From: Paenibacillus sp. JNUCC-31
GTDB lineage: Bacteria > Bacillota > Bacilli > Paenibacillales > Paenibacillaceae
Reading direction: 5' to 3'
Assembly: GCF_014844075.1 (NCBI RefSeq)
Contig: NZ_CP062165.1
Span: forward strand, 4,650,001 to 4,714,000
DNA length: 64,000 bases
Below are positions 20,401 to 40,664 of the stretch, piece by piece (within the stretch, counting starts at the first letter, position 1; each line of letters opens with the position of its first letter). The position numbers were made by a program, and so were the translations under genes. The notes beneath the pieces are model-generated. The model was not told the origin of the DNA, searched no databases, and saw only the letters and a program-made list of their open reading frames with translations.

Positions 20401-20503
20401 ACTGATGCACCTCTTCTTTTTAGATTTGTATTTAGCAGTATAGTGTAGGAATCGCCAAAAAAACAGTCTATAAAAAACATATAAATAACGGTATAATGTA
20501 AGT

Positions 20504-20671
20504 AGAGAGAATGATATTCAAGAATCGGACAAGTGGGGACCCACGAATAAGCATACCGAACTGGAAAAAGTAAGAGAAGCGATGAAACAAGCCAAAGAGC
20601 GACGATTGAAAACGTCATGCGATTCATTGCTCAACGAAATTCGTATCAAATTAATAACAAATAATGTGTGA
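20504..20671 (+). pseudogene. Possible transposase N-terminal remnant (IS630-like)
   Basis: A coding-like stretch with no start codon: TELEKVREAMKQAKERR followed by unrelated residues and a stop at 20669-20671. The basic, helical sequence resembles the N-terminus of some IS630-family transposases. It is too short for a firm call. It lies in a gap with other gene remnants. Confidence 0.25.
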
Positions 20672-20684
20672 TGCTCAAACAAGA

Positions 20685-20717
20685 AGGCAGCCGATCATAG
20701 TGATCGGCTGCCTTTGT
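20685..20717 (+). terminator. Strong hairpin terminator
   Basis: 13-base perfect stem AGGCAGCCGATCA/TGATCGGCTGCCT with a three-base loop, then TTGTT. It belongs to no intact gene; it follows the remnant at 20504-20671. Confidence 0.75.
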
Positions 20718-20803
20718 TCAACTAACGGGCAGGGTAGTGCAATGGTTTGCGTTAAGATATGTATAATAAGGTATATTGTAGTTTGAAAAGGGGAGACGAG
20801 GCT

Positions 20804-21454
20804 ATGTCGCAATCACTAATTTTTGATATGGATGGAACACTATTTCAGACAGGAAAAATATTAGAGGTATCACTCGAAGAAGCTTTTGATCGTTTAAGGT
20901 CACTAAAAGTATGGGATACAGTAACGCCTATTGAGAAATACCGTGAAATTATGGGAGTACCTTTACCAAAAGTTTGGGAGGCATTATTACCCAATCATTC
21001 TGATGAAGTAAGAAAAGAGACGGATGCTTACTTTTTGGAAGTGTTAATAAAAAATATAAGATGTGGGAAAGGCGCTTTATATCCAAATGTAATGGAGATT
21101 TTTACGCATTTAAAAGAGAATAATTGTTCAATCTACATAGCAAGTAATGGTTTAAAAGAATATTTAAATGCAATTGTGGGTTACTATAATTTGGATAATT
21201 GGGTTACTGAGACCTTTAGCATTCAACAAATTGAATCTTTGAACAAGTCAGACTTAGTCCAAAGTATAATTGTAAAATATGGAATTAGTAGTGGAGCAGT
21301 AGTAGGAGACCGCCTTTCGGATATAAATGCAGCTAAAGATAACGGTTTGGTTTCCATAGGATGTAATTTTGATTTTGCGCAAAGTGATGAACTTGCTCAT
21401 GCTGATATCGTTATAAACGATTTGATCGAGCTGAAGACAATAGTAATACAGTGA
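20804..21454 (+). CDS. HAD family hydrolase (phosphoglycolate-phosphatase-like)
   Basis: 216 residues. ATG 20804 has GGGGAGACG upstream; the earlier ATG at 20759 has none. Motif I is LIFDMDGTLFQTG (the first Asp is the nucleophile and the second the acid/base), motif II is IYIASNG, and motif IV is VVGDRLSDINAA. A helical cap domain lies between motifs I and II (subclass I). It should act as a cytoplasmic phosphatase on a small phosphorylated metabolite. Stands alone among remnants, AT-rich compared with the flanking sugar genes. Confidence 0.88.
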   Translation: MSQSLIFDMDGTLFQTGKILEVSLEEAFDRLRSLKVWDTVTPIEKYREIMGVPLPKVWEALLPNHSDEVRKETDAYFLEVLIKNIRCGKGALYPNVMEIFTHLKENNCSIYIASNGLKEYLNAIVGYYNLDNWVTETFSIQQIESLNKSDLVQSIIVKYGISSGAVVGDRLSDINAAKDNGLVSIGCNFDFAQSDELAHADIVINDLIELKTIVIQ

Positions 21455-21626
21455 AAAATACGAAGACTTTGATTCTAATTCAGCTTGTGAAACATATGAA
21501 AAATTAGCTGAGAATATAGAAAAGTATCAACTTTTTACAATTTTAGAGGAGGAAACAATAATTGGTGCGATTGATATAAGAGGAAATGATGATCGTATTC
21601 ACAGTTTAATATTTTTTCTCTTCTGA
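21453..21626 (+). pseudogene. GNAT acetyltransferase fragment (truncated)
   Basis: An open stretch of 57 codons without a start, running out of the HAD gene end. It reads ...FTILEEETIIGAIDIRGN and then stops at 21624. This matches the middle of GNAT enzymes just before the GGHIGYSVRPSERRKGYA acetyl-CoA region, which is missing. Deleted at both ends; clearly non-functional. Confidence 0.5.
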
Positions 21627-21651
21627 AAATACGGGAATCGATTGACAAATA

Positions 21652-21710
21652 AGAGAAGAGCCTGAGGGGGACGACGAAATCACGAAACCCTCCAGGCTCT
21701 TCTCTATTAT
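21652..21710. terminator. Hairpin terminator between convergent genes
   Basis: Arms AGAGAAGAGCCTG/CAGGCTCTTCTCT (13 bases) around a 28-base loop with an inner GGGG/CCCT pairing; a TATTAT tract follows on the plus strand. Serves the HAD side and possibly the YjdJ-like gene. Confidence 0.65.
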
Positions 21711-21736
21711 GATCTTCATAACCATATTATTAGTGA

Positions 21737-22024
21737 TTATTTATTGAGAACATCCGCGTATTCGGAGAGACGTTCGAATCGTCCCTTGGCAAACGGGCAT
21801 AAGGGTAAAATCTTAATACCGTTTTCCCGCGCGTATTCCACCATAGCTTCGATAAGCTTATCGCCAAGCCCTTGCCCTCGGTAAGCATTTTCGACAAAGG
21901 TATGATCAATAATGTAAAGTTCAGGACTTGAGATTACATACGTCATCACCGCAGCAATGCTGCCGTTATCTCGAATAAGAAATCTTTTTTTGGCGGTTTC
22001 ATGTTCTACCACATGCATGTTCAT
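21737..22024 (-). CDS. YjdJ-like GNAT acetyltransferase
   Basis: 95 residues. A small CG-NAT type GCN5-related acetyltransferase: FVENAYRGQGLGDKLIEAMVEYA is the acetyl-CoA loop and ILPLCPFAKGRFER the C-terminal signature of the YjdJ group. ATG 22024 overlaps the upstream stop as ATGA; the ATG two codons on (22018) has better spacing to GAGGG and may be used instead. It follows the YjdI-like gene, the same pair found in enterobacteria and bacilli. Substrate unknown. Confidence 0.85.
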   Translation of the reverse strand: MNMHVVEHETAKKRFLIRDNGSIAAVMTYVISSPELYIIDHTFVENAYRGQGLGDKLIEAMVEYARENGIKILPLCPFAKGRFERLSEYADVLNK

Positions 22025-25552: not shown

Positions 25553-26194
25553 ATGCGCTCTCTCCCTGTGGAACGGAGCACGAGTTATTGCTGCGAACCA
25601 CTCCGTTCAGTTGCACGGAATGGATTTCCTTCTGCTGTGGATTGGGAAAAGTGTGTCCCAGTGGAACTGGTGGATACGGTGACAGGCAGACCACCTCATC
25701 AATCCACGGAAGTCCGTTTTGGCTGGAGTCCCGAATTCCTGCATATTCGATTTGTATGCCAGGATGATCACGTCGTATCTGATTTCACAGAAAGGGATCA
25801 GCCATTATATGAGCAGGATGTGGTTGAACTGTTCATTGATGAACAAGGCGATGGCAGGAACTACATGGAACTGGAGGTCAGCCCGCACAACGTGGTATTT
25901 GATGCACTCATTCACAATAACGGCGAGGGTTCCGAATTGAAAGCAGATGTAACTTGGCAGGTGGAGGGTTTACAAACGGCTGTAGAAGTGGATCGGCAGG
26001 GCAATCGTGTGTATTTGATCCATATTCCCGCCAGTAACTTCAGGTCTCCCCTGGCTAAAGGGGTATGTTGGAGGGTTAATGTTTACCGTATTGATGAGAA
26101 TGTGCTGGGAGATCGGGAATATCAGGCATGGCAGCCTACGGGGGCTGTAAACTTTCATTTGCCTGCCTGTTTTGGTCATTTTCGTTTGGGATAG
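25553..26194 (+). CDS. CBM9-like carbohydrate-binding protein (cytoplasmic)
   Basis: 213 residues without signal peptide; ATG 25553 with AAAAAGGAGA upstream. The motif WSPEFLHIRFVCQDDHVVSDF, DVVELFIDEQGDGRNYMELEVSPHN and a final WQPTGAVNFHLPACFGHFRLG mark the family-9-like sugar-binding sandwich found as a single domain in many Paenibacillus. Usually attached to secreted enzymes; as a stand-alone intracellular protein its job is unknown. First of three genes divergent from the AraC regulator. Confidence 0.75.
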   Translation: MRSLPVERSTSYCCEPLRSVARNGFPSAVDWEKCVPVELVDTVTGRPPHQSTEVRFGWSPEFLHIRFVCQDDHVVSDFTERDQPLYEQDVVELFIDEQGDGRNYMELEVSPHNVVFDALIHNNGEGSELKADVTWQVEGLQTAVEVDRQGNRVYLIHIPASNFRSPLAKGVCWRVNVYRIDENVLGDREYQAWQPTGAVNFHLPACFGHFRLG

Positions 26195-26244
26195 CCATGC
26201 ACTGCAGAAGAACAGGGTTCCATATTTTGAAGGAGGGGTTTGAC

Positions 26245-27093
26245 ATGAAAAAAGGGATTAACATATGGTCGTTTCCAGGAGATGCCTCGATTTCGGATTG
26301 TATTCAGACGGCGAAGCAGGCTGGCTTTGAAGGGATTGAACTATCGCTTAATGGAGAAGGCGAGCTGAGTCTGTCTGCCACGGATCAGGAGGTCCGTGAT
26401 ATTCAGGGACGTCTCGAAGAGGCCGGGATTGAGATCGCGGGACTTGCAACCGGTTTGTACTGGGATTACCCGATGACGAGTGCTCGTCCAGAGATCCGTA
26501 CAAAAGCATTGGATGTATGTAAGAAGCAGCTCGAGCTTGCCGCGGCATTTGGTGTGGATACCATTCTGGTCATTCCAGGTGCTGTTGGTGTGGATTTTAT
26601 TCCAGACAGCGAAGTGACGGATTATGAAGTCGCCTACGAGCGGGCGCAGGAAGCGATTGCGCACCTGCTGCCGTATGCGGAAAGTACCGGCGTATCCATT
26701 GGCATTGAGAACGTATGGAACAAATTCCTGGTGTCACCGCTAGAACTGCGTTCCTTCATTGACTCGTTTAATTCAGAATATATAGGTTCGTATCTCGATG
26801 TGGGCAATGTCGTACAGAACGGTTATCCGGAGCAGTGGGTTCGCATTCTCGGCCATCGGATCAAAAAGGTGCATTTCAAGGATTACCGCCGTCAAGCGGG
26901 AGGACTTCACGGGTTTGTGGATCTGCTGGCTGGAGATGTGAATTATCCGGCGGTGATGGAGGCATTGCAGGCCATTGGTTACGACAACTATGTGACTGCC
27001 GAGATGATTCCGCCGTACACTCATCATTCGAAGCAGATCATATTTAATACATCCAAAGCGATGGATGCCATCCTTGGATGTTCTTTGGAATAG
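26245..27093 (+). CDS. Sugar phosphate isomerase/epimerase (xylose isomerase-like TIM barrel)
   Basis: 282 residues from ATG 26245 with AGGAGGGG upstream; the frame reaching 26128 overlaps the previous gene. It has the AP-endonuclease-2 fold: AGFEGIELSLNGEGELS, VDTILVIPGAVG, SIGIENVWNKFLVSP (metal-binding Glu), YLDVGNVV and VHFKDYRRQAGG. Such enzymes interconvert keto and aldo sugars or inosose derivatives, often together with Gfo/Idh/MocA oxidoreductases like the next gene. Substrate not assigned. Confidence 0.9.
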   Translation: MKKGINIWSFPGDASISDCIQTAKQAGFEGIELSLNGEGELSLSATDQEVRDIQGRLEEAGIEIAGLATGLYWDYPMTSARPEIRTKALDVCKKQLELAAAFGVDTILVIPGAVGVDFIPDSEVTDYEVAYERAQEAIAHLLPYAESTGVSIGIENVWNKFLVSPLELRSFIDSFNSEYIGSYLDVGNVVQNGYPEQWVRILGHRIKKVHFKDYRRQAGGLHGFVDLLAGDVNYPAVMEALQAIGYDNYVTAEMIPPYTHHSKQIIFNTSKAMDAILGCSLE

Positions 27094-27154
27094 GGGATAC
27101 ATCTAACAATGGGAATTGGAACGCAAAATTTTATTTTATTCGGGAGGTAGAAGC

Positions 27155-28198
27155 ATGTTAAAAGTGGGATTGATCGGTTTTGGGTTTATGGGACGTATGC
27201 ATTTCGATAACTATGTACGCCTTGCTTCCGAAGGGGAACCTGTGGAATTGGTAGCCATCTGCGATCTGAGAATAGAGGAACTGAAGAACGGTAAAGCAGC
27301 TGGCAATATGGCAACAGAGCAAGAGGTATATGATCTCACACCTTATCGTTTGTACGACAACATCGACGCGATGCTGGAGCAAGAAGAACTGGATATCATC
27401 GATATTACGCTGCCTACGCCATTGCACGCTGAACTAACGTGTTCCTTGCTGGAGAAAGGCATGCATGTGCTGTGCGAGAAGCCGGTTGCACGTCATTCGG
27501 CGGAAGGCTGGAAGATGGCAGAGACCGCCAAAGCGACCGGAAAAACACTGATGATTGGTCAATGTTTACGCTTCTGGCCAGCCTATGCCTATCTGAAATC
27601 TGTTGTAGAAGATGGTCGTTATGGAGCGGTAAATGCAGGTTATTTCTTCCGGGGTTCAGGTTTGCCTCAAGAGTGGTTCCTGGATGGCGAGAAAAGCGGC
27701 GGCTGCATACTGGATATGCACATTCATGATGCGGACATCATTCACTGGCTATTTGGTAAACCGGATCAAGTCTCCACACTTGCCCGTAACGTAATTCCGG
27801 GAAGCGGTTATGATACGGTGTCCACCAACTACGTATACCCTGACGGAAAAGTGCTGAATGCCCAAGCCGACTGGACGCTGGGGGGAGACTATGGTTTCTC
27901 CATGACGTATAGAGTTAATTTCGAACAGGGGAATCTGGTATTTGAGAATGGTGAGCTGAAAGTAAATCCGAACAATGCACCCGGCTTCGTCGCTGAGTTG
28001 TCACCCGACACGGGATATTATCACCAGCTCAAATATTTTATCCAGTCCGTGCAAGCAGGTGCCCCTGTATCTGTATGTACACCGGAGAGCGCAACGGGCA
28101 CGCTTGAAATGATTGAAGCCGAAATGCGTTCGGCGGATGAGCACGGGGCATTGGTTTCGGTGGCGGAAAAGACAGGTCAAATGACAGCAGAGGCATAA
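27155..28198 (+). CDS. Gfo/Idh/MocA family oxidoreductase
   Basis: 347 residues from ATG 27155 with GGGAGGT upstream. Rossmann start KVGLIGFGFMGRMH, cofactor motif HVLCEKPVARHSAEG and catalytic-region motif GGCILDMHIHDADIIHWLFG. Sixty bases after the isomerase gene, so likely co-transcribed; together they resemble sugar or inositol catabolic modules. Differs clearly from the oxidoreductase at 14361. Confidence 0.92.
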   Translation: MLKVGLIGFGFMGRMHFDNYVRLASEGEPVELVAICDLRIEELKNGKAAGNMATEQEVYDLTPYRLYDNIDAMLEQEELDIIDITLPTPLHAELTCSLLEKGMHVLCEKPVARHSAEGWKMAETAKATGKTLMIGQCLRFWPAYAYLKSVVEDGRYGAVNAGYFFRGSGLPQEWFLDGEKSGGCILDMHIHDADIIHWLFGKPDQVSTLARNVIPGSGYDTVSTNYVYPDGKVLNAQADWTLGGDYGFSMTYRVNFEQGNLVFENGELKVNPNNAPGFVAELSPDTGYYHQLKYFIQSVQAGAPVSVCTPESATGTLEMIEAEMRSADEHGALVSVAEKTGQMTAEA

Positions 28199-28287
28199 AT
28201 CAGGATGTACTGGAAAATACAACCGTGACGGTATGTAATCTTGTGGATATACTGGGGTGAGATTGTTATTCCGGGAGGTCCCTTGTC

Positions 28288-28596
28288 ATGAAAAATCGTA
28301 CCGTGGCGAATTGGCTCTTTTTTATCAATGCGATCAATTTAATTACACTGGTAGCTTATCCTTATATGCTGCTCATCAGCTTTTATATGTTTGCCAGCAG
28401 CAATACGAATGATTATGTATTGGAGTATATCGCCGCAGGGGTGCTGGCTACCTATCCGGTTCCGGTCCTGGCATCGTTCACCTGCTGGGTGTTCTATAAA
28501 AATTACAAATTCAAGATTGCGCTGATCATGGCAAATTTGTTACTGGTGTGGGTGGCCATTCTTTTGCTTGCCGCACTTGCGTCTACTTTGATTTAG
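28288..28596 (+). CDS. Small membrane protein, unknown function
   Basis: 102 residues; ATG 28288 follows GGGAGGT at good spacing. Three strongly hydrophobic segments (about residues 9-34, 46-70 and 75-100) predict an integral membrane protein. I do not recognise the family. It is followed by a terminator and lies between the sugar genes and the peptide cluster; it seems independently expressed. Confidence 0.65.
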   Translation: MKNRTVANWLFFINAINLITLVAYPYMLLISFYMFASSNTNDYVLEYIAAGVLATYPVPVLASFTCWVFYKNYKFKIALIMANLLLVWVAILLLAALASTLI

Positions 28597-28613
28597 ATCG
28601 AGACGAAATGGAA

Positions 28614-28651
28614 AGAGCAGAACCTTCGTACATGAAGGTTCTGCTCTTTTT
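28614..28651 (+). terminator. Terminator upstream of the RiPP cluster
   Basis: Arms AGAGCAGAACCTTC/GAAGGTTCTGCTCT with a six-base loop followed by five T. Separates the small membrane protein gene from the peptide locus. Confidence 0.9.
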
Positions 28652-28740
28652 ACAATAATGTTCCTTTTAAAAATCGAACATGAAGAAATGTAAATGATAT
28701 TTATTACTGTTTAATTAATGGATTTATCGGATAATTTCTC

Positions 28741-28768
28741 TTGTAAATACAATTTAATAATTATATTT
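28741..28768 (+). promoter_or_regulatory. Candidate promoter of the RiPP precursor gene
   Basis: TTGTAA (28741-28746), 16-base spacer, TATATT (28763-28768) in AT-rich DNA, ending 32 bases before the precursor start. Only a plausible sigma-A match. Confidence 0.4.
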
Positions 28769-28800
28769 GTTTGTTAATCTAATTGAAGGGAGGTAGAGAT

Positions 28801-28959
28801 ATGCTTAAACAAATCAATAAGGGATTTGCTAAGGGTTCTTCTGACTCAAAGTTATGTTGGACATGTGATACAAAGGACTACTGTGTAAAATGTGATGCAC
28901 TTGACTGGGGATGTTCAGGTGGATGGGAAACTTGCATTACCAAAGATTCTGATGGTTAG
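28801..28959 (+). CDS. Freyrasin-like ranthipeptide precursor (six-Cys RiPP)
   Basis: 52 residues with a strong GGGAGGTAGAG site before ATG 28801. A basic leader of about 18 residues (MLKQINKGFAKGSSDSKL) is followed by a Cys-rich core with Cys at 19, 22, 28, 31, 38 and 45. Asp stands exactly four positions after five of them (19-23, 22-26, 28-32, 31-35, 45-49); the Cys at 38 has Trp at +4 and Glu at +5. The first four rings form a nine-residue repeat, C-x-x-C-D-x-x-D-[YW]. Cys-X3-Asp is the substrate pattern of freyrasin-type radical SAM enzymes, which join Cys sulfur to the Asp beta-carbon. The gene lies 130 bases before a radical SAM/SPASM gene. Bioactivity unknown. Confidence 0.85.
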   Translation: MLKQINKGFAKGSSDSKLCWTCDTKDYCVKCDALDWGCSGGWETCITKDSDG

Positions 28960-29002
28960 ATTGTGAGAAGTGACTTTTTACTAGACACACTCCTCAGCAA
29001 AG

Positions 29003-29038
29003 AACCCAGATGTTCTAAGAAATAATCTGGGTTTTTTG
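29003..29038 (+). terminator. Terminator between precursor and radical SAM gene
   Basis: Arms AACCCAGAT/ATCTGGGTT with a 13-base loop, then TTTT. Partial termination here would give more precursor than enzyme transcript, as usual in peptide clusters. Confidence 0.85.
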
Positions 29039-29089
29039 AGCGTTATTTTATCAAGAATAACTTACAACGTATAGAATGGAGCAAAGGAA

Positions 29090-30469
29090 ATGAACGAATT
29101 AACAAATGTTTGGGAAGAACGCATCACACCAGGAGATGTTATGCTTCTAAAGCATAATTCTACTAAATATGCATACGTTCCAGAGAGTAATGCATTATAT
29201 GAAATTGATAACAATTTAGAGATGATTCTCAAGTCGGAAAATGAAACAGCATCGGTGTTATACAATAAATTACCTTCGCCATTAGAGAAAGGAGAGTTTC
29301 TCGAAGTCATTGATTCTCTGATCGAGAATGAAATGATCAATCAAGAAAGAAAAACTAAAGAAATTGAGACAGCCCATTTTCAAACAATCAGCGCTCTAAC
29401 ACTTATGATGGTACAAGAATGCAATCTAAAGTGTACCTATTGTTATGCTGGAGATGGCGAGTACAATGAAAAAGGAAAAATGAATTTCGAAACTGCGAAA
29501 AGATCTGTGGATTTTTTAATTCAGAATTCAGGAAATATTGAAGAATTGACTCTTGTTTTCTTTGGCGGGGAACCTTTATTAAATTTTGAAACGATCGAGC
29601 AAGTTGTACAATATGCTAATAAACTAGCTGAGACACATCATAAAAAAATTAAATATAGTATGACTTGTAATGGAACCCTCATTACTCCGAAAATCATTAA
29701 CTTTATTAGGGCTCATGATATCTATGTTCAAATTAGTGTTGATGGCCAGAAGTCTGCTCATGATCAGAATAGGTTTTATGGTAACCAAAAAGGCAGTTAC
29801 GAAATAATCATGAATCGTACGGAAGAGCTCAGAGACAAAAAACAGTTGGGAGTGCGTTCTACACTTACTCCCGCAAATACGAACTATACAGAAATATACC
29901 AACACTTATTTTCTTTGAATTTTCGAAGTGCTTTTTTAGCACCTGCTATGCAAATGTTTAACAGAGAGAGTTTTGAAGATTTGGGTGTAGAATTTGAGGT
30001 TCTAACACAGTATTTTCTAAAACTTATAGAAGCGAAGGAATATAGTAAGGCTAAAAAGATAAATAATGTAATGAAATTTTTACAGAGATTACATAGTGGT
30101 TTCGAGTCGACCTATTCATGTGGAGCCGAGGTTAACTTTTATGCTGTTGATATTCATGGTGATCTCTATCCGTGTCATCGCTTCGTTAACAATAAAAATT
30201 ACAAACAGGGCAACGTATACTCTGATATTGATCATTATAAGAAAAATGAATTTCTTCTAGAAGCACATACATCCAATCGGCAAAATTGTAATTATTGTTG
30301 GGCTAGAAATTTGTGTGGCGGTGGCTGTCATCATGAGAACTATGAGTTATCTGGAGCTGTAACATCACCACCGGTGGATTATTGTAGGCTTACAAAAACA
30401 CAATTACAGTCCATTTTTCATCTTTACTTAACTTTGACAGAAGAAGAAAAAGAGATATTGCTAGGTTAA
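29090..30469 (+). CDS. Radical SAM/SPASM peptide maturase (thioether-forming)
   Basis: 459 residues. Residues 1-90 resemble a PqqD-like peptide-recognition domain. The radical SAM cluster motif CNLKCTYCYA has Cys at 111, 115 and 118; GGEPLL (159-164) is the SAM-binding loop. The SPASM region has Cys at 344, 362, 400, 403, 409, 413 and 432, in the CX2CX5CX3C arrangement that binds two auxiliary [4Fe-4S] clusters. This is the architecture of sactipeptide and ranthipeptide maturases. With the Cys-X3-Asp precursor just upstream the best prediction is installation of thioether bridges. Codon use is AT-rich, like the rest of the cluster and unlike the neighbours, suggesting transfer. Confidence 0.93.
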   Translation: MNELTNVWEERITPGDVMLLKHNSTKYAYVPESNALYEIDNNLEMILKSENETASVLYNKLPSPLEKGEFLEVIDSLIENEMINQERKTKEIETAHFQTISALTLMMVQECNLKCTYCYAGDGEYNEKGKMNFETAKRSVDFLIQNSGNIEELTLVFFGGEPLLNFETIEQVVQYANKLAETHHKKIKYSMTCNGTLITPKIINFIRAHDIYVQISVDGQKSAHDQNRFYGNQKGSYEIIMNRTEELRDKKQLGVRSTLTPANTNYTEIYQHLFSLNFRSAFLAPAMQMFNRESFEDLGVEFEVLTQYFLKLIEAKEYSKAKKINNVMKFLQRLHSGFESTYSCGAEVNFYAVDIHGDLYPCHRFVNNKNYKQGNVYSDIDHYKKNEFLLEAHTSNRQNCNYCWARNLCGGGCHHENYELSGAVTSPPVDYCRLTKTQLQSIFHLYLTLTEEEKEILLG

Positions 30470-30502
30470 CTTTTAAAAGGGTATTACTAAGGAGATTCAA
30501 TT

Positions 30503-32149
30503 ATGAAAGGTCTTGCTTTTATATATAAAAGATTGCTCCCTTATAATCGTGAGATTGTGACAATTTTGTTATTCATGGGACTGCCTCTGTGTTTTGGAAT
30601 AATACAGCCTATCCTGTTTGGAAAATTCGTTGATTTGATTAGTTCTAACCAGATTAAGGATGCTTTTTTTATCGTTTTTTTGATTTTTATTGTTTGTTTG
30701 ATGAGTCTTCTTTTTAACTTGGTGTGCAAATATAAAGTAGCAAGTATCTCTTATAAAATTCAATTCAGTTTAAAGACTGATCTAATTAAACGTATCTTCT
30801 TTCTTCCTATGAACATCTTCGAATCGCTCCCCAAGGGAGAGATAATTAACAAAGTTGAAAATGATACAAAAGCATTCTCAATTGCCGTAACGGACTTAGC
30901 AAAGTTTCTCGTAGATAGTATCAGTTTCATCTTTATTATTATTATACTCATTAAAATCAATCTGAAACTTTCATTAATTTTAGTTCTTCTTGGGCCGATA
31001 TTACTTATATCATTCTTGGTATTTGGAAAAAAAATAAAATTTTGGGACGCGATTGTTAAACGGAAATTAGATAGTTATCTTAATTTATTGAATGAGATCT
31101 TGGAGAAATTCACGCTATTTAGAGTTTTTCATGCAGAAGGTGTGATCTTTCGAAAGTTTGAAGGGGAATTGAGTAGTTATCAATCGTCATCATTAAAAAA
31201 GAACAGGATAACCATTCTTTCTAGTGGTACAGTAGAAGGCCTAAACTTTATTTCATATATAGCAATTCTCTTGGGTGGACTTTATTTTATTGGAAATCAC
31301 AATCTTACTCTGGGGGAACTTGTAGCATTCACAACGTATTCCAGCAATTTCAATTACTCTCTGTTAAGGTTTTCTCAATTTAACGTCCTGGTACAGGAAA
31401 CCGTGGTCTCTATAAATCGAATGGACAATATTCCGGCTCCAGCATTAAAAAATAGCAATGAGAAAGGTAAATATGATTTGGGGAGTTTAACTAATTTTAC
31501 CGGAAATGTCATGGGAATATCGAATCTCTCCTATAGCTATGCTGAAGTTGGTATTAGGTGTATTAATGAATTAACCTTGTCTGTTTCTCGATCAAAAATT
31601 CTTCAAATTACTGGGGCAAACGGGAGCGGGAAATCAACCTTGTTAAAAATTCTAGCAGGATTTTATCGGAACTATACAGGTGAGATTCGTTATAAGGGAT
31701 CAGATATTAATGATATCCCTCGTTCTGTATATTGTAATGAGGTATGTTTGGTTACTCAAGAACCTCAAGTCATTTCTGGCTCAATCCGTGAGAATCTTTT
31801 ACTGGGGAACGCTCAAGCAACTTCGGGAGAACTACGCAAGGTGTGTGAAATGGTTGGTATTGCTTCGTTTATTGATTCACTAGATCATAATTATAATACT
31901 TTAATCGGTATTAATGGAATTGAACTATCTGTTGGTCAAAAACAGAAGTTATCCATGGCTAGAGGACTACTAGTAAATGCAGAATTATACTTGTTTGACG
32001 AAGTCACTTCTGCACTGGATGCGATGCATAAACAAACTTTTTTCGAATTGATGCACTCTTTGAAAGAGAACAATAAGGCGATTATTATCATCTCTCATGA
32101 TCCACTTCCACCTGGCTTGGTTGATGAAAAAATCGAATTATGTATCTAA
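30503..32149 (+). CDS. ABC exporter (permease-ATPase fusion) of the RiPP cluster
   Basis: 548 residues; ATG 30503 with AAGGAGA upstream, 33 bases after the maturase. An N-terminal exporter membrane domain (six helices to ~residue 300) and an ATPase domain with Walker A GANGSGKST near residue 370, signature ELSVGQKQK, Walker B LYLFDEVTSALD and switch His in IIIISHDPLPP. There is no C39 peptidase domain, so if a leader is removed another protease is required. Probable exporter of the modified peptide. Confidence 0.9.
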   Translation: MKGLAFIYKRLLPYNREIVTILLFMGLPLCFGIIQPILFGKFVDLISSNQIKDAFFIVFLIFIVCLMSLLFNLVCKYKVASISYKIQFSLKTDLIKRIFFLPMNIFESLPKGEIINKVENDTKAFSIAVTDLAKFLVDSISFIFIIIILIKINLKLSLILVLLGPILLISFLVFGKKIKFWDAIVKRKLDSYLNLLNEILEKFTLFRVFHAEGVIFRKFEGELSSYQSSSLKKNRITILSSGTVEGLNFISYIAILLGGLYFIGNHNLTLGELVAFTTYSSNFNYSLLRFSQFNVLVQETVVSINRMDNIPAPALKNSNEKGKYDLGSLTNFTGNVMGISNLSYSYAEVGIRCINELTLSVSRSKILQITGANGSGKSTLLKILAGFYRNYTGEIRYKGSDINDIPRSVYCNEVCLVTQEPQVISGSIRENLLLGNAQATSGELRKVCEMVGIASFIDSLDHNYNTLIGINGIELSVGQKQKLSMARGLLVNAELYLFDEVTSALDAMHKQTFFELMHSLKENNKAIIIISHDPLPPGLVDEKIELCI

Positions 32150-32193
32150 GGACTGAGATGTCAAAATAAAAATAAGGTAGCAGGTGAGTATTT

Positions 32194-33054
32194 ATGAAAT
32201 TGAGCGTTAAAAATCTTTCGAAACATTACGATAAGCCTATTCTCCAGAATGTATCTTTTGAAATGAATACTGGAATACTTGGTTTGCTAGGCGAAAATGG
32301 AGCAGGAAAAACGACATTGCTCGAAATCATCTCCACGCTCATTGCCCCCCATACAGGTCAAGTAGACTATGAAGGCATGGATGTCGTTCAGGACTTACAT
32401 ACGATTCGAAAACAGATTGGCTACTTGCCACAGAAGTTTGATTTTTTTCCCCACTTGACCGTGCAGGAGATTCTTGAATATGTTTGTCGTTTGAAAAATA
32501 TTCATGGGAGGCAGCGGATAACAGAAATTGAAGAAAAACTCAAGCAGGTTGGATTGCTGGAGCAAAGAAACAAAAAATTCAATGCTTTGTCTGGAGGTAT
32601 GAAGCAACGCTTAGGTATTGCCCAGGCTATTGTCGGCAACCCCAAGTTACTATTGATTGATGAACCTACCGTGGGACTTGATCCTCATGAGCGTGTATCG
32701 TTTAGACAATTGTTAACAACTCTTGCAACAGACCGGTCTATTATTATTTCCACTCATATTGTCGAAGATGTTGCACTTACAACAGATTTTGTTCTTGTAC
32801 TGCACCAAGGGAATGTTAACTACTTTGGAGATATCCCTGCTTTCATCAAATCGGTCGAGGGAAAGGTGTGGCTTTACAGCGGAGAGAATGTGACAGAGAA
32901 GCTTCAAAAACAAGGTGCACTAATCATCTCAACACAGGTCACTGCAAGTGGTGTACATATACGCTATCTATCGGATACCCCGTTGGAAGGCAGCCTTTTA
33001 TTAGAGCCTACTTTGGAGCACGCCTATATTTATACGAATAGAAAGAAGGTATAA
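32194..33054 (+). CDS. ABC-2 type transporter ATPase
   Basis: 286 residues. Stand-alone ATPase with Walker A GENGAGKTT, signature ALSGGMKQRLG and Walker B LLLIDEPTVGLDPHE, and a C-terminal ~70-residue regulatory tail. It belongs to the CcmA/NatA group that pairs with ABC-2 membrane subunits; the next two genes supply them. In bacteriocin loci such sets often give self-immunity, which is the inferred role here. Confidence 0.9.
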   Translation: MKLSVKNLSKHYDKPILQNVSFEMNTGILGLLGENGAGKTTLLEIISTLIAPHTGQVDYEGMDVVQDLHTIRKQIGYLPQKFDFFPHLTVQEILEYVCRLKNIHGRQRITEIEEKLKQVGLLEQRNKKFNALSGGMKQRLGIAQAIVGNPKLLLIDEPTVGLDPHERVSFRQLLTTLATDRSIIISTHIVEDVALTTDFVLVLHQGNVNYFGDIPAFIKSVEGKVWLYSGENVTEKLQKQGALIISTQVTASGVHIRYLSDTPLEGSLLLEPTLEHAYIYTNRKKV

Positions 33055-33057
33055 CCA

Positions 33058-33744
33058 TTGAATGAATTTATGGTACAACTTCATTTTTCGTTTAAATCTT
33101 TGCTAAAACATCGCATGCTACTTATCATTGTTTTTTTTCTCACAACGATAATCCCACTTGTTTTGGCACAAATGAGTGGAGAGACCCGCTTTGAAAATCG
33201 TTGGCTTTCTATGCTTCAGCTCCAAATGATTATTGTGACGCCTCTAGTCCCCGTTCTCGTAAATGCTGTTTGGGGCGGAAAACTAAGAGACTTCGAACTG
33301 AAAACGATCATGTTTTATCTAATTAGCCCAGCAAATTATTTAATCTCTAAGCTTGTAGCGGTTGGGGCCGGAATAAGCATGAGTTTGATACTGATCGATT
33401 CTATTTATTGGTTTGCATTATCAAACCAAGCTCCTAATCTCTTATGGTTAGTTACACTCTTGCAAATCATCTTAACCGTATCCTTTGTTGTCTCGTTAAC
33501 TGGACTATGCTCACTTATTTTTAAGAGGACGATATACAGTACTATTTTAGTTTTTATTTACTTGATTATCAGTATTCAATATGTCCAACAACCCATGTTT
33601 GCGATCTGGTTTAATCCAGATTATGTATCGGAAATGATACTACAGCCGAATTTTATGCTTCAACGGTATGTCTTAGTCTTGTGGGTAGCCCTCATGCTTT
33701 TGATCAGCTCAATGTTGTTCAGAAAGCAGGTTGTACGCACATGA
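33058..33744 (+). CDS. ABC-2 type membrane subunit
   Basis: 228 residues, six hydrophobic segments. TTG 33058 lies three bases after the ATPase stop with AGAAGG upstream; ATG 33070 is an alternative. It has no strong family motif beyond the six-helix ABC-2 layout. Its stop overlaps the next start (ATGA). Probably forms the membrane part of the transporter with the ATPase before it. Confidence 0.75.
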   Translation: MNEFMVQLHFSFKSLLKHRMLLIIVFFLTTIIPLVLAQMSGETRFENRWLSMLQLQMIIVTPLVPVLVNAVWGGKLRDFELKTIMFYLISPANYLISKLVAVGAGISMSLILIDSIYWFALSNQAPNLLWLVTLLQIILTVSFVVSLTGLCSLIFKRTIYSTILVFIYLIISIQYVQQPMFAIWFNPDYVSEMILQPNFMLQRYVLVLWVALMLLISSMLFRKQVVRT

Positions 33745-34871
33745 TACGGTTATGGTTTTTAAAACTAAAGGTCCTATGGCGCAGTGAACATATCTGGGCT
33801 TTCTACATGGGACTGTTCATGTTGTATTTGACCAAATTTGTATTTTTCATAGATGAATTGCCTGTTACCATACCTTTATATGGACTTTTCATGTCCACCA
33901 TGACGCTTGTTATATTGAATTCACCTAAGCGTTACCATATGGTTCATATGATAAGACTTACCAACTGGAATCCTATACGGAGAACTTTGCAGTCATGGTT
34001 ATTTAGTTTTTTTTGTACGCTTCCAGCCTCAACCCTCTTATTTTTCACTATTCGTGAAATCTTTAAAGACACTCCTGTTTATCTGCTTATGTTTGTTATT
34101 TTCGGATTATCTTACTTCGCAATCAGCTTTGCGTTTGTAATTTCTTTATTACCTTTTAAAATGGCTATTCTATGCAGTGTATCTTTGTACATGGTCCTCA
34201 CTTTAATGCATGGTTATAAACTGGAGAGTGTTCGGTACGTTGCACCAACTCTGAATTTTATGTATCCAGATTACCCTGATATGATTAATATGCTGTCGAT
34301 ATTTTTTCTTGGTATACTGATGCTGGCCATCTATTGTTGGAGCGGAGTCGATTGGCCTCGCCGACAAAAAAAAATATTGCTTTTCATTCTCATGATTATC
34401 GCTGCCGCATACATCGCAGTTCCCCTTGGACAAATATGGAATGGAAGGCATTTAGCAAATGAACCTTATCAAAAGGTTCAAGTGAATAACATCGTTGTGC
34501 AGTATAAAGGCATCCCTCATACTATTGCAACAAGATATGGTCAGGTAGTCTCTGATATTATTGATGAGTTGAACGAACATAAGATTAATCCCAATATTGC
34601 CCAAATCATAATTACTCGATTAGATCATGTTCCCAAAGGTACTCAACTGGAGCATATTTTGAAGTTAGAAGAGAAGACGCTATACATTGAACCCTATTCA
34701 AATAAGTTTTATGAGTTTAATTATGGATATAATATAATTCGGGATATGCTTGAACTTTCCGAAACTGACCATCAAATTGGACAACAAATAACCCAAAGTT
34801 TGATTAGTAAAAACAAACATCACTTTTTCGATTCACTTCAACGCAGGGGACTTAGTGAAACCTATGAATAA
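33741..34871 (+). CDS. Membrane protein with C-terminal extracytoplasmic domain, unknown
   Basis: 376 residues from ATG 33741, overlapping the previous stop as ATGA; the longer frame to 33681 is inside that gene. About seven hydrophobic segments fill residues 1-245, followed by a soluble part of ~130 residues (VQVNNIVVQYKGIPHTIATR to the end) that is probably outside the membrane after an odd number of passes. I recognise no family. As the last gene of the peptide cluster, coupled to an ABC-2 set, it may be a second transporter subunit or an immunity component with a peptide-binding domain. Confidence 0.7.
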   Translation: MIRLWFLKLKVLWRSEHIWAFYMGLFMLYLTKFVFFIDELPVTIPLYGLFMSTMTLVILNSPKRYHMVHMIRLTNWNPIRRTLQSWLFSFFCTLPASTLLFFTIREIFKDTPVYLLMFVIFGLSYFAISFAFVISLLPFKMAILCSVSLYMVLTLMHGYKLESVRYVAPTLNFMYPDYPDMINMLSIFFLGILMLAIYCWSGVDWPRRQKKILLFILMIIAAAYIAVPLGQIWNGRHLANEPYQKVQVNNIVVQYKGIPHTIATRYGQVVSDIIDELNEHKINPNIAQIIITRLDHVPKGTQLEHILKLEEKTLYIEPYSNKFYEFNYGYNIIRDMLELSETDHQIGQQITQSLISKNKHHFFDSLQRRGLSETYE

Positions 34872-34893
34872 AAGATATGGTTTCATAAGAGTA

Positions 34894-34924
34894 GGCGTGT
34901 CTTCAAACTGTTTGAAGACACGCC
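34894..34924. terminator. Hairpin at end of RiPP cluster
   Basis: Perfect 14-base arms GGCGTGTCTTCAAA/TTTGAAGACACGCC with a three-base loop. No T run follows directly, but it is placed at the end of the operon, 22 bases after the stop. Confidence 0.65.
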
Positions 34925-35016
34925 CTGGAACATTAGCTAATGGATTTTCCGCACTATCGAATTTGGTGATTGTACTTTTTTTGAAATACATACTGGCTTG
35001 ATTTTATTTTTGAAAC

Positions 35017-36792
35017 TTAAATTACCCGCCAGTTATTCGCCTGCTCCACCGTCACTGGTTGATGCCTGCGAATATAATCTTCCACTAATGCGGCCATATC
35101 CGTGGCGCCTTCGTGCAGTACCTTTTTGCCTGGATACATGGCATAATCACCACCACCCGCCGCACGATAACTGTTCATCACTACGGAGTACGTTGCGTCC
35201 ATTGCAACAGGTATACCCTCACGTTCCAGCTTCACCACACGATCCCCTACAGGTTTGGAGATTTCCAGCTCATATTCGATGCCTGCCCACATGTCGTAAT
35301 TATAATGTTGCGGTTTGGGCTGCATGTACGCGGGATTGACGACGACGTCGCCTGAAGCATCCAATTCAAAGTAACGTGCCGTTTGCTCCAACGCATCCCG
35401 AATGTCCTGCCCACGAAGCTCCAGCACGGTCAGTGTATTAGGATAGATAAAGTTAGATAATACATCCCGAACGGTAATGAGGGAACCGAACCCTCGGGCT
35501 TCTTCACTAAGCAATGCCGTATTGGAAATCTGTGCACCTGTTGCTTCCATCTGTACCTGATGTACAAAAGCCATGAAGGGATGCGCAGCAAGCCGCAGTG
35601 CGGCAGGATCTGCGATGGACAGGTCTCCGGCAACTTCGCCAATCGGCTGGTCCAGCCATGCCTGTGCTTTTGCTTCCAGCTCGTCTGTCAGTTTCATAAC
35701 AGCATCATCGGGCTGTAAGTCCGTATGTTCATCCAAAAGCAGCAAGCGAGCCTGTTTTCCGGCAATCTGCCATTTTCCATCCGATAAACGCTCCAACTGG
35801 ACGGATACCTGACCTGCACCGTTTCCACTAAACCCCGGCTGGATGACGGTCACCCCATGTATTTCAGCCGTAAGCTGACGATGTTGATGCCCGGTGAGCA
35901 GAACGTCAATCCCTTCAATGTCACGGCAGATGGCGTACGCCTGATTTTCTCCGGTTAACCTTTCGGCAGGTTCGCCTGTCTCCAGATCACTTTCAAATCC
36001 CCCATGATAACTGACCACGAGCACATCCGGCTGTTCATGTTCACGAATATAGCCAACCCACGCACGAATAGTCTCCAGAGCGTCAAGGAACTGTAAACCT
36101 TCTATATTTTTCGGATGCTCCCAGTTCGGAATATAGTGTGTCGTTGCGCCCAGCAAAGCAATTTTAACGCCCGAGGACAACGTTTTGATCAGATAAGGAG
36201 GGCCAAAGGCAGGTATGCCTGCTCCAGGAGGCGCAACAGCCCGTATTTCTTTTTCAGGATTCCCTTCATATGCATGGATCACGACCTGTTCATCCTGATA
36301 CGTTTTGTACGACGGCTGATCGTCGGCGCTGTGTTGTGACGCTAACCCTTCATGGTCACTTTCATGATTTCTCTCATCCTCTCTATAAGGATCTTCTTTA
36401 TGACGATCCATAACAATGTTGGCGGATAGCCAAGGAAAATGAGAGTCTTCCACGGCTTTACGCAGCAATTTCTGTCCGTAGTTGAATTCATGATTGCCCA
36501 CCACGGCAGCATCATAGCCTAGTTCATTCAGAACGTGAATGAAGGGATGCACTTCATGATCTGATACAAAGGACGCCGCATATGAGGCCAAAGGAGAACC
36601 CTGCAACAGATCGCCATTATCCACGAGCAGCAGTTCAGGTGAGCATTCCCATTCCCGCCGGATCAGTGAAGCCAGCAAAGCAAGCCCGGCTGGACGATAG
36701 GCATTGGTATTATAATGAATGGGCCGAATGGCCCCATGCAGGTCACTGGTTACTATGATGTCGAAGCTTGACGTAGATGTTATGGATGTCAT
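35017..36792 (-). CDS. UshA-like metallophosphatase/5'-nucleotidase (no signal peptide)
   Basis: 591 residues with GGAGAT before ATG 36792. The N-terminal calcineurin-like domain carries IIVTSDLHGAIRP, LLLVDNGDLLQGSP, AAVVGNHEFNYG, VVSYHGGFE and LLTGHQHR, the metal-binding motifs of two-metal phosphoesterases. The C-terminal 5'-nucleotidase domain has ISNTALLSEEARGFG and MNSYRAAGGGDY, which forms the substrate pocket. No signal sequence or anchor, so it is predicted cytoplasmic, unlike typical secreted UshA. It should hydrolyse nucleotides, cyclic nucleotides or other phosphoesters. Divergent from a phosphonate-type importer. Confidence 0.9.
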   Translation of the reverse strand: MTSITSTSSFDIIVTSDLHGAIRPIHYNTNAYRPAGLALLASLIRREWECSPELLLVDNGDLLQGSPLASYAASFVSDHEVHPFIHVLNELGYDAAVVGNHEFNYGQKLLRKAVEDSHFPWLSANIVMDRHKEDPYREDERNHESDHEGLASQHSADDQPSYKTYQDEQVVIHAYEGNPEKEIRAVAPPGAGIPAFGPPYLIKTLSSGVKIALLGATTHYIPNWEHPKNIEGLQFLDALETIRAWVGYIREHEQPDVLVVSYHGGFESDLETGEPAERLTGENQAYAICRDIEGIDVLLTGHQHRQLTAEIHGVTVIQPGFSGNGAGQVSVQLERLSDGKWQIAGKQARLLLLDEHTDLQPDDAVMKLTDELEAKAQAWLDQPIGEVAGDLSIADPAALRLAAHPFMAFVHQVQMEATGAQISNTALLSEEARGFGSLITVRDVLSNFIYPNTLTVLELRGQDIRDALEQTARYFELDASGDVVVNPAYMQPKPQHYNYDMWAGIEYELEISKPVGDRVVKLEREGIPVAMDATYSVVMNSYRAAGGGDYAMYPGKKVLHEGATDMAALVEDYIRRHQPVTVEQANNWRVI

Positions 36793-37043
36793 TTTACAAT
36801 CTCCTCTAACTATATAAGTTTAAACATATGAAATCCCAGGTCATTCTGGCGGCGGAGTACGTAGTAATTACCATTTCTACTTGTATCATCTGCCGTAATG
36901 AGCCTATTCTACCAGATGAAAGTCGCTCTGACAGCCTGACAGGAAACTTTACAAAACTCCAAATTTCGTTTCACATCGCGCAAATATTCGACGACTATAG
37001 TAGACAAGTATTGAAAAATAGAAACTCTTTGGAGGGTGTTCGC

Positions 37044-38027
37044 TTGAAGAAGTCTGCTTTATTTTTACCATTGTTGATTTTGGTTCTGTTTCTAAGTGCT
37101 TGTGGGTCTAACAGTAGTACAACAGGTTCAGCTAACGGAGCTGATACGAGCTCGAATGCACCCGGTACGGAAACGGCAGAAACAGACAAAGCCGCTGAAG
37201 GTTATGTGCCAACTGAACTGACTGTACAATTCGTTCCATCACAAAATGCAGATACACTCGAAGCCAAAGCGAAACCGCTTGAGAAGCTGCTGGGTGACAA
37301 ATTGGGCATCCCGGTGAAGGTTAGCGTATCCACAGACTACAACACAATTATTGAAGCAATGGCTTCCAATAAAGTGGACGTTGGTTTCTTGCCTCCGACG
37401 GCTTATGTACTTGCCAAAGAAAAAGGCGCAGCTGAAGTTATTCTTCAGGCACAACGTTTTGGCGTAAATGATGAGACTGGCGCTCCAACCGAGCAACTGG
37501 CAGATTCGTATAAATCCATGATTATCGTAAAAAAAGATTCGCCGATCCAATCCATTGAGGATCTGAAAGGCAAAAAAATCGCCTATCAGAACGTAACTTC
37601 TTCCGCAGGTTATGTATGGCCGGCAGCCCTGTTGCTGGACAGAGGCATTGATCCGTTGAAAGATGTAACACCTGTAACGGTAAAAGGTCATGACCAAGGC
37701 GTTATCGCTGTACTGAACGGTGATGTTGATGCAGCAGCGATTTTCCAGGATGCTCGTAACACAGTATCCAAAGACTACCCAACTGTATTCGAAGACACCC
37801 GTGTACTGGCGTTCACAGAGCCAATCCCTAATGACACCATTGCTGTTCGCACAGACATGAATGCAGAGTGGTCTGCGAAGATCAAACAAGCGTTCATCGA
37901 CATCGGTAAAGATCCTGCAGGTCACGAGATCGTTAAGGAAATCTACACACACGAAGGTTACGTAGAGTCGGATGACAGCAAATTTGATATCGTTCGTGAG
38001 TACGGCGAAAAAGTGAAAACAGAGTAG
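37044..38027 (+). CDS. phnD: Phosphonate/phosphate ABC transporter binding lipoprotein (PhnD)
   Basis: 327 residues. The start is TTG 37044, with GGAGGG at seven bases; the frame back to 36828 is untranslated leader. Signal with lipobox LSAC, then a Ser/Thr linker. The mature domain has LTVQFVPSQNADTLEAKAKPL, DVGFLPPTAYVLAKEKGA and GKKIAYQNVTSSAGYVWPA, the PhnD pattern whose Ser/Thr residues bind the phosphonate or phosphite. First gene of a PhnD-C-E-E set. Confidence 0.92.
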   Translation: MKKSALFLPLLILVLFLSACGSNSSTTGSANGADTSSNAPGTETAETDKAAEGYVPTELTVQFVPSQNADTLEAKAKPLEKLLGDKLGIPVKVSVSTDYNTIIEAMASNKVDVGFLPPTAYVLAKEKGAAEVILQAQRFGVNDETGAPTEQLADSYKSMIIVKKDSPIQSIEDLKGKKIAYQNVTSSAGYVWPAALLLDRGIDPLKDVTPVTVKGHDQGVIAVLNGDVDAAAIFQDARNTVSKDYPTVFEDTRVLAFTEPIPNDTIAVRTDMNAEWSAKIKQAFIDIGKDPAGHEIVKEIYTHEGYVESDDSKFDIVREYGEKVKTE

Positions 38028-38103
38028 TTTTCTGTTAAAAGAAAGATAGTTAATGATCGCATTGCATTGCTTATCTTTTCATTGGAGAACTTCATCGGTT
38101 CAG

Positions 38104-38148
38104 CGGGCAGGCCAGTTCAGCGTGACATACGCTGCGCTGGCTTGTCCC
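38104..38148 (+). other. Intercistronic branched hairpin between phnD and phnC
   Basis: Outer arms GGGCAGGCCAG/CTGGCTTGTCCC (imperfect) enclose CAGCG/CGCTG. No T run. It probably stabilises the binding-protein transcript or reduces downstream expression, a common design for binding-protein operons. Confidence 0.5.
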
Positions 38149-38200
38149 ATTACAGCGTGACTCTAAGAAATACCATATTAATGAAAGAAGGATTAACGCC

Positions 38201-39001
38201 ATGATTGAGCTTCACAATGTAACGAAAACTTATGCTAACGGCACGAAAGGCCTGAATAATATTAATCTGAAATTTAAGCAGGGGGAGTTCATTGCCGTAG
38301 TAGGTTTGTCTGGTGCAGGGAAATCAACGCTCTTGCGTTCCATTAACCGACTGCATGATATCAGCGAAGGCGAGATTTTGATTAATGGCAAGTCGATTAC
38401 GAAAGCCCATGGCAAGTCACTTCGCATGATTCGTCGGGATATCGGCATGATCTTCCAGAGCTTCAATCTTGTGAAACGTTCCAGTGTTCTTCGCAACGTG
38501 CTTGCTGGGCGTGTGGGATATCATTCCACCATGCGTACCATTCTGGGACGTTTTCCCAAAGAGGATACGGAACTCGCATTTGGAGCACTGGAGCGGGTGA
38601 ATATTGCGGAGAAAGCCTATTCCCGCGCGGATCAATTGTCCGGTGGGCAGCAGCAGCGGGTAGCCATAGCTCGCGTACTTGCACAGGAAGCAAAAATCAT
38701 TCTGGCAGACGAGCCTGTCGCTTCACTTGATCCGCTGACAACGAAACAGGTTATGGATGATCTGAAACGCATCAATCAGGATCTCGGAATTACAACCATT
38801 GTTAACCTTCACTTTATTGACCTCGCAAGAGAATATGCGACCCGTATTGTTGGATTGCGTGCGGGCGAAGTGGTGTTTGACGGACCTGTTTCCGAAGCGA
38901 CGGATGAGCGTTTTGCAGAAATTTATGGCAGACCTATTCTGGCAGACGAGCTGCTGGATAAACAGGCTGTACAGGAACAGCGGGGAGAAGTTCTGGTATG
39001 A
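38201..39001 (+). CDS. phnC: Phosphonate ABC transporter ATPase (PhnC)
   Basis: 266 residues. Walker [10 protein letters not shown], signature [13 protein letters not shown], Walker [15 protein letters not shown] and switch His in [11 protein letters not shown]. The [21 protein letters not shown] stretch is typical of PhnC. It energises uptake through the two PhnE proteins that follow; its stop overlaps the next start. Confidence 0.95.
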
Positions 39002-39861
39002 AGCAGCCCGTGAATGTACCGATAGATGGATCATTGCAGAACGATTCGAGGAAGGGCAAGCGTCCTGGCCCAGGCTCAGGTTCGACGATCCACCGTCCCA
39101 AACCACCGGGGCGCACCAAACATCTGCTCACGTTGATCATCATTCTCCTGCTTTTGTGGGCAAGTGCCAAACAGACGGATGCCAGCTTCAGTGAACTGAT
39201 CGAAGGTTTTCCGAACATGCTGGACCTACTGCGGGAGATGTTCCCGCCGCGATGGACCTATTTTGACAATATCGTTCAGGGCATGCTGGAGACGATTCGT
39301 ATGGCTCTCATCGGTACAACGATTGGTGCAATCATCGCGATTCCCGTTTCCATCATCTGTGCTGGTAATTTGATGCCCAGCCGCTGGATCTATTATCCGG
39401 CCCGCTTTGTACTGAACCTGATTCGTACCGTGCCAGATCTGCTGCTGGCTGCGCTGTTCGTTGCTGTATTTGGACTGGGGCCGATTCCGGGTATATTGGC
39501 ACTCGCCGTCTTCTCGGTGGGACTGATTGCCAAGCTGACCTACGAAACGTTGGAAACGATTGATCAGGGCCCCCTTGAAGCGATGACCGCTGTAGGCATG
39601 AATCGGATTCAGCTCATTATCTATGGCGTGGTGCCGCAACTGGCTGCCCAGTTTACTTCCTATGTGCTCTATGCCTTTGAGATTAATGTGCGCGCCGCCG
39701 CGATTCTCGGATTGGTCGGTGCAGGGGGCATTGGGCTGTATTATGAAGCGACACTTGGTTTCCTGGAATATGACAAAACGAGTGTAATCATTCTGTTTAC
39801 CCTTGTCATTGTTCTGATTATTGATTATGTAAGTACTAAGCTGCGGGAGAAATTGTTATGA
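38998..39861 (+). CDS. phnE: Phosphonate ABC transporter permease (PhnE, first copy)
   Basis: 287 residues, with a long basic N-terminal tail (~35 residues) before the first helix and six helices in total. The EAA loop reads [24 protein letters not shown] and is followed by the PhnE stretch [20 protein letters not shown]. Coupled to PhnC and to the next permease by four-base overlaps. Confidence 0.94.
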
Positions 39862-40664
39862 TGAAAAATGAAACAAGCGTTATCCGGCGCAAACCACGGA
39901 AAAACCCGCTTCGCTGGGTCATTGTACTCTTGCTTATCCTTGTGTATGCCTGGGCACTTGCCGGTGTACCGTTTACCGGTTTCAAGGAAACCGCTGGTCA
40001 GATCATGAAGGCGATTGTTGCCGGAATTTTCTCCCCGGATTGGAACTTTGTCTATCTGCCTGAGGGTGAGGATCTGCTGCGAGGGCTGCTGGATACGCTG
40101 GCGATCTCCGTGCTGGGTACCGTCATTTCCGCTGTACTGTGCATCCCGTTTGCGTTCTGGTCTGCCCGAAATATGAGCAGCTTCCGTCCTGTATCGGGTA
40201 CAGGCAAAATGGTGCTCAGCTTTATCCGTACGTTCCCGGAGATTATTATGGCTTTGCTGTTCATCAAGGCGGTAGGACCGGGTTCTTTCGCGGGTGTGCT
40301 CGCCCTTGGATTGCATTCCATAGGGATGCTCGGTAAGCTATTCGCTGACGAAGTGGAAAATATTGATTATGGTCCTTCTGAAGCGTTGCTCGCTTCCGGA
40401 GCGACTCGCATGCAGCAGCTGTGGTTTGCTGTACTGCCACAAGTTTTGCCAGGATTCCTGAATTACACGTTGTATCGGTTCGAGATTAATGTGCGCTCCG
40501 CAACCATACTAGGTGTGATTGGGGCAGGGGGGATTGGTACACCGCTGATCTTCGCACTCAGCACACGGAACTGGCCACGAGTAGGTATTATCCTGCTGGG
40601 TATTATCGTGATGATTACGATCATTGATCTGATCTCGGGATACATCCGCAAGAAGCTGGTATAA
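39858..40664 (+). CDS. phnE: Phosphonate ABC transporter permease (PhnE, second copy)
   Basis: 268 residues, related to the preceding gene: GPSEALLASGATRMQQLWFAVLPQ and FEINVRSATILGVIGAGGIG. The start at 39858 overlaps the first permease stop (the ATG three bases on is equally good). The two proteins presumably form a heterodimeric channel. No C-P lyase or phosphonatase genes accompany the importer in this window, so phosphite, phosphonate or phosphate esters all remain possible substrates. Confidence 0.94.
   Translation: MMKNETSVIRRKPRKNPLRWVIVLLLILVYAWALAGVPFTGFKETAGQIMKAIVAGIFSPDWNFVYLPEGEDLLRGLLDTLAISVLGTVISAVLCIPFAFWSARNMSSFRPVSGTGKMVLSFIRTFPEIIMALLFIKAVGPGSFAGVLALGLHSIGMLGKLFADEVENIDYGPSEALLASGATRMQQLWFAVLPQVLPGFLNYTLYRFEINVRSATILGVIGAGGIGTPLIFALSTRNWPRVGIILLGIIVMITIIDLISGYIRKKLV

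Follow-up and report, generated by a model that had tools for sequence, protein, structure and literature searches.

Freyrasin of Paenibacillus polymyxa (precursor PapA, maturase PapB) is known for its chemistry; a stated biological role was not met with in the accessible parts of the literature. In its cluster, the precursor gene adjoins the gene for the PapB-type maturase, the peptide begins with the leader motif MLKQIN and carries two nested CX3D units as well as a final CX3D, and an ATP-binding cassette (ABC) exporter without a peptidase domain lies beside papB. According to the accessible portions of PMC9413430, nested CX3D links occur naturally in PapA, PapB accepts Glu, and a minimal CXnD substrate is tolerated for n from 0 to 6. 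The features of the cluster are shared by an operon at positions 28801 to 34871 of the stretch analyzed here (the window), which comprises 64,000 nucleotides of the 7.55 Mb genome of Paenibacillus sp. JNUCC-31 (G000:C1:4650001-4714000; contig NZ_CP062165.1). All parts of the gene set named in a preliminary description of this DNA were confirmed at these coordinates as six co-directional genes. We consider it probable from sequence comparison that they form a horizontally acquired PapB-type ranthipeptide operon, the product of which would carry thioether rings, be exported by the ABC exporter (ABC1) and be countered in the producer by a three-gene ABC module (ATPase2-perm1-perm2) serving self-protection. 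The cluster is not a new class; new are the shifted fifth motif of its precursor type and a natural deletion series pointing to the immunity module, with the restriction that no literature search was aimed at CX4E or at the module.

The maturase gene (29090 to 30469, plus strand as for all features of the operon; 459 residues) encodes a radical S-adenosylmethionine (SAM)/SPASM enzyme that clearly passes NF047865, the equivalog model for PapB (410.1 bits, cut-off 340), whereas the next-best model, TIGR04064, reached 308 against a cut-off of 518.7. The full three-Cys SAM motif and the seven SPASM Cys claimed at the outset were recovered as CX3CX2C (Cys111, Cys115 and Cys118) and as Cys344, 362, 400, 403, 409, 413 and 432, and these ten of the 11 Cys of the enzyme were kept in all seven aligned sequences, the window included. 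Arg364, an Arg in 7/7 aligned sequences, aligns to Arg372 of PapB, counted on the P. polymyxa sequence P0016, which was assumed to share the PapB numbering; according to PMC9413430, mutation of Arg372 abolishes cross-linking. The closest maturases were those of Paenibacillus sp. JJ-223 (89% identity), an unassigned protein (62%), Saccharibacillus (60%), Lysinibacillus (58%) and P. polymyxa (about 41%). By sequence, the top PDB hit was 5wgg, which we take to be CteB; as regards an N-terminal precursor-binding (RRE) domain, this match spans residues 33-440 of the window enzyme. SCIFF/CteB-type maturases are likewise radical SAM/SPASM enzymes; the window enzyme scored 250.8 bits with their model TIGR03974 (cut-off 425), and the window precursor matched the freyrasin model only. 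A maturase of the SCIFF or nif11 type was ruled out, with scores far under the cut-offs. A non-peptide SPASM enzyme was ruled out as well, since the PapB equivalog was clearly the best model and candidate precursors were found beside 17 of the 18 PapB loci inspected.

These 18 loci comprised the 16 over-cut-off loci of the family to which the window genome belongs together with G566 and G793 from another family, and with Cys-rich candidates beside 17 of them, the proposed freyrasin-like ranthipeptide class is supported. In numbers that include the window genome unless stated otherwise, the maturase was matched in 10/75 genomes of the same genus (E ≤ 1e-60), in 3/398 genomes of a class sample (E ≤ 1e-95) and in 2/261 genomes of the family of G566, in which the window does not fall (E ≤ 1e-80); in the family of the window genome, 15/394 genomes exceeded the PapB cut-off and 49/394 matched at E ≤ 1e-70. 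Among plasmids, two records were found at E ≤ 1e-60, with 39% and 33% identity. The locus with no precursor beside papB was L021 (G007), where PapB is truncated at the N-terminus (351-residue frame), representing a decayed freyrasin-type cluster. Two of the 17 candidate precursors (G205 and G232) are short four-Cys peptides. Another PapB cluster layout is seen in G205, G232 and G127 (short four-Cys candidate precursors at L054:8676-8801, L055:8882-9010 and L056:9210-9434), with acidic residues at varying distances from the Cys, as counted by eye, and further ABC transporters, including two exporter-sized open reading frames (ORFs) in L054 and L056. G045 carries two PapB clusters (L018, L022) of different layouts and with different precursors.

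The gene for the PapA-like precursor (28801 to 28959) encodes 52 residues; its frame was listed from a TTG at 28783, and the ATG at 28801 is preceded by GGGAGG. The peptide contains two nested CxxCDxxD units (Cys19, Cys22, Cys28 and Cys31), followed by Cys38 with Glu43 at +5 and Cys45 with Asp49 at +4. Asp is thus found at +4 of five of the six Cys, the fifth (Cys38) having the more distant Glu instead, so that the window peptide holds five of the six Cys-X3-Asp motifs of freyrasin precursors. Five such motifs were attained in 3 of 200,000 shuffled versions of the whole peptide and in 13 of 200,000 when only its last 37 residues were shuffled, demonstrating that the pattern is more than chance, and the nested CX3D arrangement adjoins a PapB gene. 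Compared with the P. polymyxa layout, the N-terminal CX3D ring is missing and an extra Cys, the one with Glu at +5, precedes the last ring. Alignment with 10 relatives revealed ten positions invariant in all 11 precursors, five of them Cys. A protein-database search with the precursor alone returned only the peptide itself, from one candidate.

The maturase would bind the precursor by its conserved leader (MLKQIN) and link the sulfur atoms of Cys to carbons in the side chains of acidic residues. The six-gene operon encodes no protease that would account for removal of the leader. Every one of the resulting cross-links is predicted: four rings from the two nested CxxCDxxD pairs, one Cys45-Asp49 ring, and probably one enlarged Cys38-Glu43 ring (CX4E) replacing a standard CX3D ring, which would make the peptide a variant of freyrasin in which the fifth ring is shifted. 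The CX4E ring stays a prediction because PapB takes Glu and a range of spacings, yet CX4D in PapA is summarised as unprocessed by P. polymyxa PapB in the accessible part of PMC8172795, which counts against such a ring unless the window enzyme differs. The same observation, together with the lack of an acidic residue at +4 of Cys38, speaks for a five-ring product of the same operon in which Cys38 is free, in a disulfide or linked to another residue. To this possibility we give roughly one chance in three, as Glu is found at +5 of the fifth Cys in 5/5 distinct window-type precursors (window, identical in G055; G011; G566; G793; G008), while position +4 varies (W, Y or S; Tyr in JJ-223 where the window has Trp). 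Moreover, precursors of a sister layout have Glu at +3 (G061 and G019) or +4 (L057) of the corresponding Cys. A motif other than CX3D that is conserved in a native precursor would reveal whether the tolerance of PapB for ring size in vitro is used naturally, a point of relevance to peptide engineering based on such enzymes.

The ABC1 gene (30503 to 32149; 548 residues) matched ABC_membrane (PF00664) and ABC_tran (PF00005), and no peptidase domain was listed for it in the Pfam search, in agreement with the preliminary description; ABC1 likely exports the peptide. Behind it lie the genes of the proposed immunity module, encoding the ABC ATPase ATPase2 (32194 to 33054; 286 residues; PF00005, 3e-35) and the membrane proteins perm1 (33058 to 33744; 228 residues; TTG start) and perm2 (33741 to 34871; 376 residues). 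The perm2 frame was listed from a GTG at 33681, and its ATG at 33741 overlaps the perm1 stop. No Pfam or NCBIfam family was found for perm1, homologues of which occur in the same gene order in relatives. The last membrane protein had been described as unlike anything recognised. For perm2, no meaningful Pfam or NCBIfam match was obtained, as that claim would have it; the claim does not extend to the predicted structure, in which residues 1-205 resemble an ABC-2-type permease, followed by a further helix and a C-terminal alpha/beta domain at about 240-376. The Foldseek search with the perm2 model was not significant on its own. For the C-terminal domain, M1/M61 aminopeptidases were among the weak Foldseek matches (best E 0.92) and were not used as evidence.

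Transporter genes also accompany other PapB clusters. In the P. polymyxa layout, an ABC ATPase and two ABC2_membrane_4 proteins adjoin papA, whereas the window has a different, co-directional ABC module, the two membrane proteins of which match no Pfam family. In the G205 layout, Pfam matches identify an FtsX-type permease with an ATPase, and a two-component system of histidine kinase and response regulator. The JJ-223 cluster (G011/L013) contains the same six genes as the window in the same order. ABC-2 and FtsX-type transporters often take part in resistance to membrane-active peptides, and ATPase2-perm1-perm2 may be a dedicated self-protection transporter that clears the peptide from the producer membrane.

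Natural deletions bear on this function. At E ≤ 1e-10, perm2 was detected in 14/394 family genomes. In nine of these, PapB exceeds its cut-off (G000, G011, G019, G028, G045, G055, G061, G222 and G240), and five are without a PapB match at E ≤ 1e-70 (G008, G010, G020, G027 and G387). All nine PapB genomes with a window-type or MFDP/MFKP-type precursor retain perm2. In G020, at the same site as in the window, about 3.3 kb are gone, joining window position ~28754 to ~32093; 18 ABC1 codons remain, and the module is open and 97.9% identical. Comparison of G010 with G011, the surroundings of which are about 98% identical, showed that everything from the upstream region to the end of ABC1 is absent, with the module open. 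G027, compared with G019, has lost papA and most of papB, of which fragments remain, and its exporter is frame-broken (48 in-frame stops versus one in G019, G061 and G045); here, too, the module is open. Gene loss is certain in G020 and G027 because remnants are present, and likely in G010 from the comparison with G011. Three lineages have thus lost the function of peptide, maturase and exporter while the module stayed open. As exporter function was lost together with the maturase and the module was kept, the simplest reading would assign export to ABC1 and immunity to the module. Although the cases are few, they point to an immunity module and an antibacterial peptide, and the probable immunity suggested earlier gains support from them. 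Orphan immunity genes are a known concept for bacteriocins. In G020 and G010 the old upstream region now immediately precedes the module and may serve as its promoter.

Two other explanations of the module were weighed against these data. The peptide might be a signal that the module exports or imports and that non-producers keep in order to respond to their neighbours. ABC-2 modules can export, and the terms ranthipeptide and quorum sensing co-occur in the literature, which is a co-occurrence and not a shown link. Signalling nevertheless appears unlikely to us, as neither a receptor nor a regulator is among the six genes of the operon and as loss or breakage of the separate exporter alongside the maturase, with the module preserved (G020, G010, G027), is the pattern expected of immunity. 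The ABC transporters in other PapB layouts, one with a two-component system, fit resistance but could fit signalling too. Alternatively, ATPase2-perm1-perm2 could be an unrelated housekeeping transporter adjoining the cluster by chance, a view to which G387, a genome of another genus with an open module standing alone, neither papA nor papB being matched within the first 12 kb of its contig, where the module lies, and the moderate selection on orphan copies would lend some weight. We regard it as very improbable, since the module lies beside papB in 9/9 family genomes that have both, and also in G566 and G793, and since perm2 is restricted to the few family genomes mentioned above.

Returning to the immunity reading, branch counts of synonymous and nonsynonymous changes in the module, on branches that include the time before the loss, were 13/5 (G020), 12/13 (G010) and 9/11 (G027) for the orphans, and 6/11 (G000), 12/7 (G055), 15/7 (G011) and 17/12 (G019) for complete relatives. 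In a site-count test, the orphans were below neutral expectation (P 1e-5 for G020, 4e-3 for G010 and 2e-2 for G027).

Several observations weigh against the interpretation of the operon as a whole. The precursor scored 22.9 bits (E 6e-5; residues 9-37 only) with NF037957, the freyrasin_like model, and missed its cut-off of 30, whereas three P. polymyxa-type precursors scored 54.8-65.6; six precursors of the window and sister types reached 21.0-30.3, with G566 (30.3) barely passing, and the short G205 peptide 10.8. Six PapB genomes are without perm2 (G205, G232, G127, G025, G026 and G007); where the precursor was inspected, these have other precursor types. G008 has open frames for papA and perm2, fragments of papB and ABC1, a stop within ATPase2 and a frame-broken perm1; due to the stop in ATPase2 we rejected this genome as a case of module retention and regard it as a decayed cluster. 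Selection is not strong in all of the orphan modules, and the complete G011 and G019 (P 5e-6 and 2e-5) lie further below neutral than G010 and G027. Finally, three clear cases and no converse case are a small sample.

Tentatively, and with rather less than even confidence, we suggest that PapB-type peptides in this branch act against bacteria and occur in natural ring-size variants (CX4E; Glu at +3 or +4 in the sisters; CX4D or CX5D, counted by eye, in the short precursors of G205 and G232), and that no fewer than three lineages of Paenibacillaceae (G020, G010 and G027), once producers, are now protected non-producers. The natural deletion series indicates a specific three-gene shield, which makes the purpose of the peptide directly testable.

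The preliminary description had further considered the locus transferred and richer in AT than its flanks. Both statements are supported: the GC content is 35.9% at 28801-34871 compared with 49.1% at 26000-28200 and 48.5% at 35017-40000, and the lowest-GC stretch of 6071 bases in the window begins at 28601 (scan in steps of 200). Over 6073 bases, the operon shares 90.35% identity with its JJ-223 counterpart, which lies at a different chromosomal site, whereas the genes that flank the operon in the window show only 78.1% (oxidoreductase side) and 71.0% (nucleotidase side) identity between the two genomes. The nucleotidase gene was present in 58/75 same-genus genomes, and 30 of these 58 were inspected as loci. 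Three hold operon sequence (G000, G055 and G020), 13 have the two flanks together with no operon in between, and the remaining 14 were uninformative within the stretch fetched. The identities, the other site in JJ-223 and the 13 operon-free sites support the view that the operon was probably acquired horizontally.

A T-rich hairpin (28998 to 29038) occupies the gap between the precursor and maturase genes. The region folded (28957-29089) reached -32.5 kcal/mol (z -3.65), and none of 200 shuffles was equally stable; the hairpin is possibly an attenuator and was absent from the sites returned by a simple terminator scan. The promoter scan gave 23 sites and the terminator scan three, compared with shuffle means of 23.9 and 3.3, so that no promoter is claimed. 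No Rfam family reached its gathering threshold in 26000-37000. Between the oxidoreductase gene and the operon lies an ORF of 102 residues (28288-28596, plus strand) that appears membrane-like by eye and has family matches below the cut-offs only, and G055 and G020 lack an equivalent of the segment 28199-28459. A second AT-rich patch of the window (35.7% GC at 20001-22000) has at its edge an ORF of 138 residues (19984-20400, minus strand) that may encode a rifampin ADP-ribosyltransferase.

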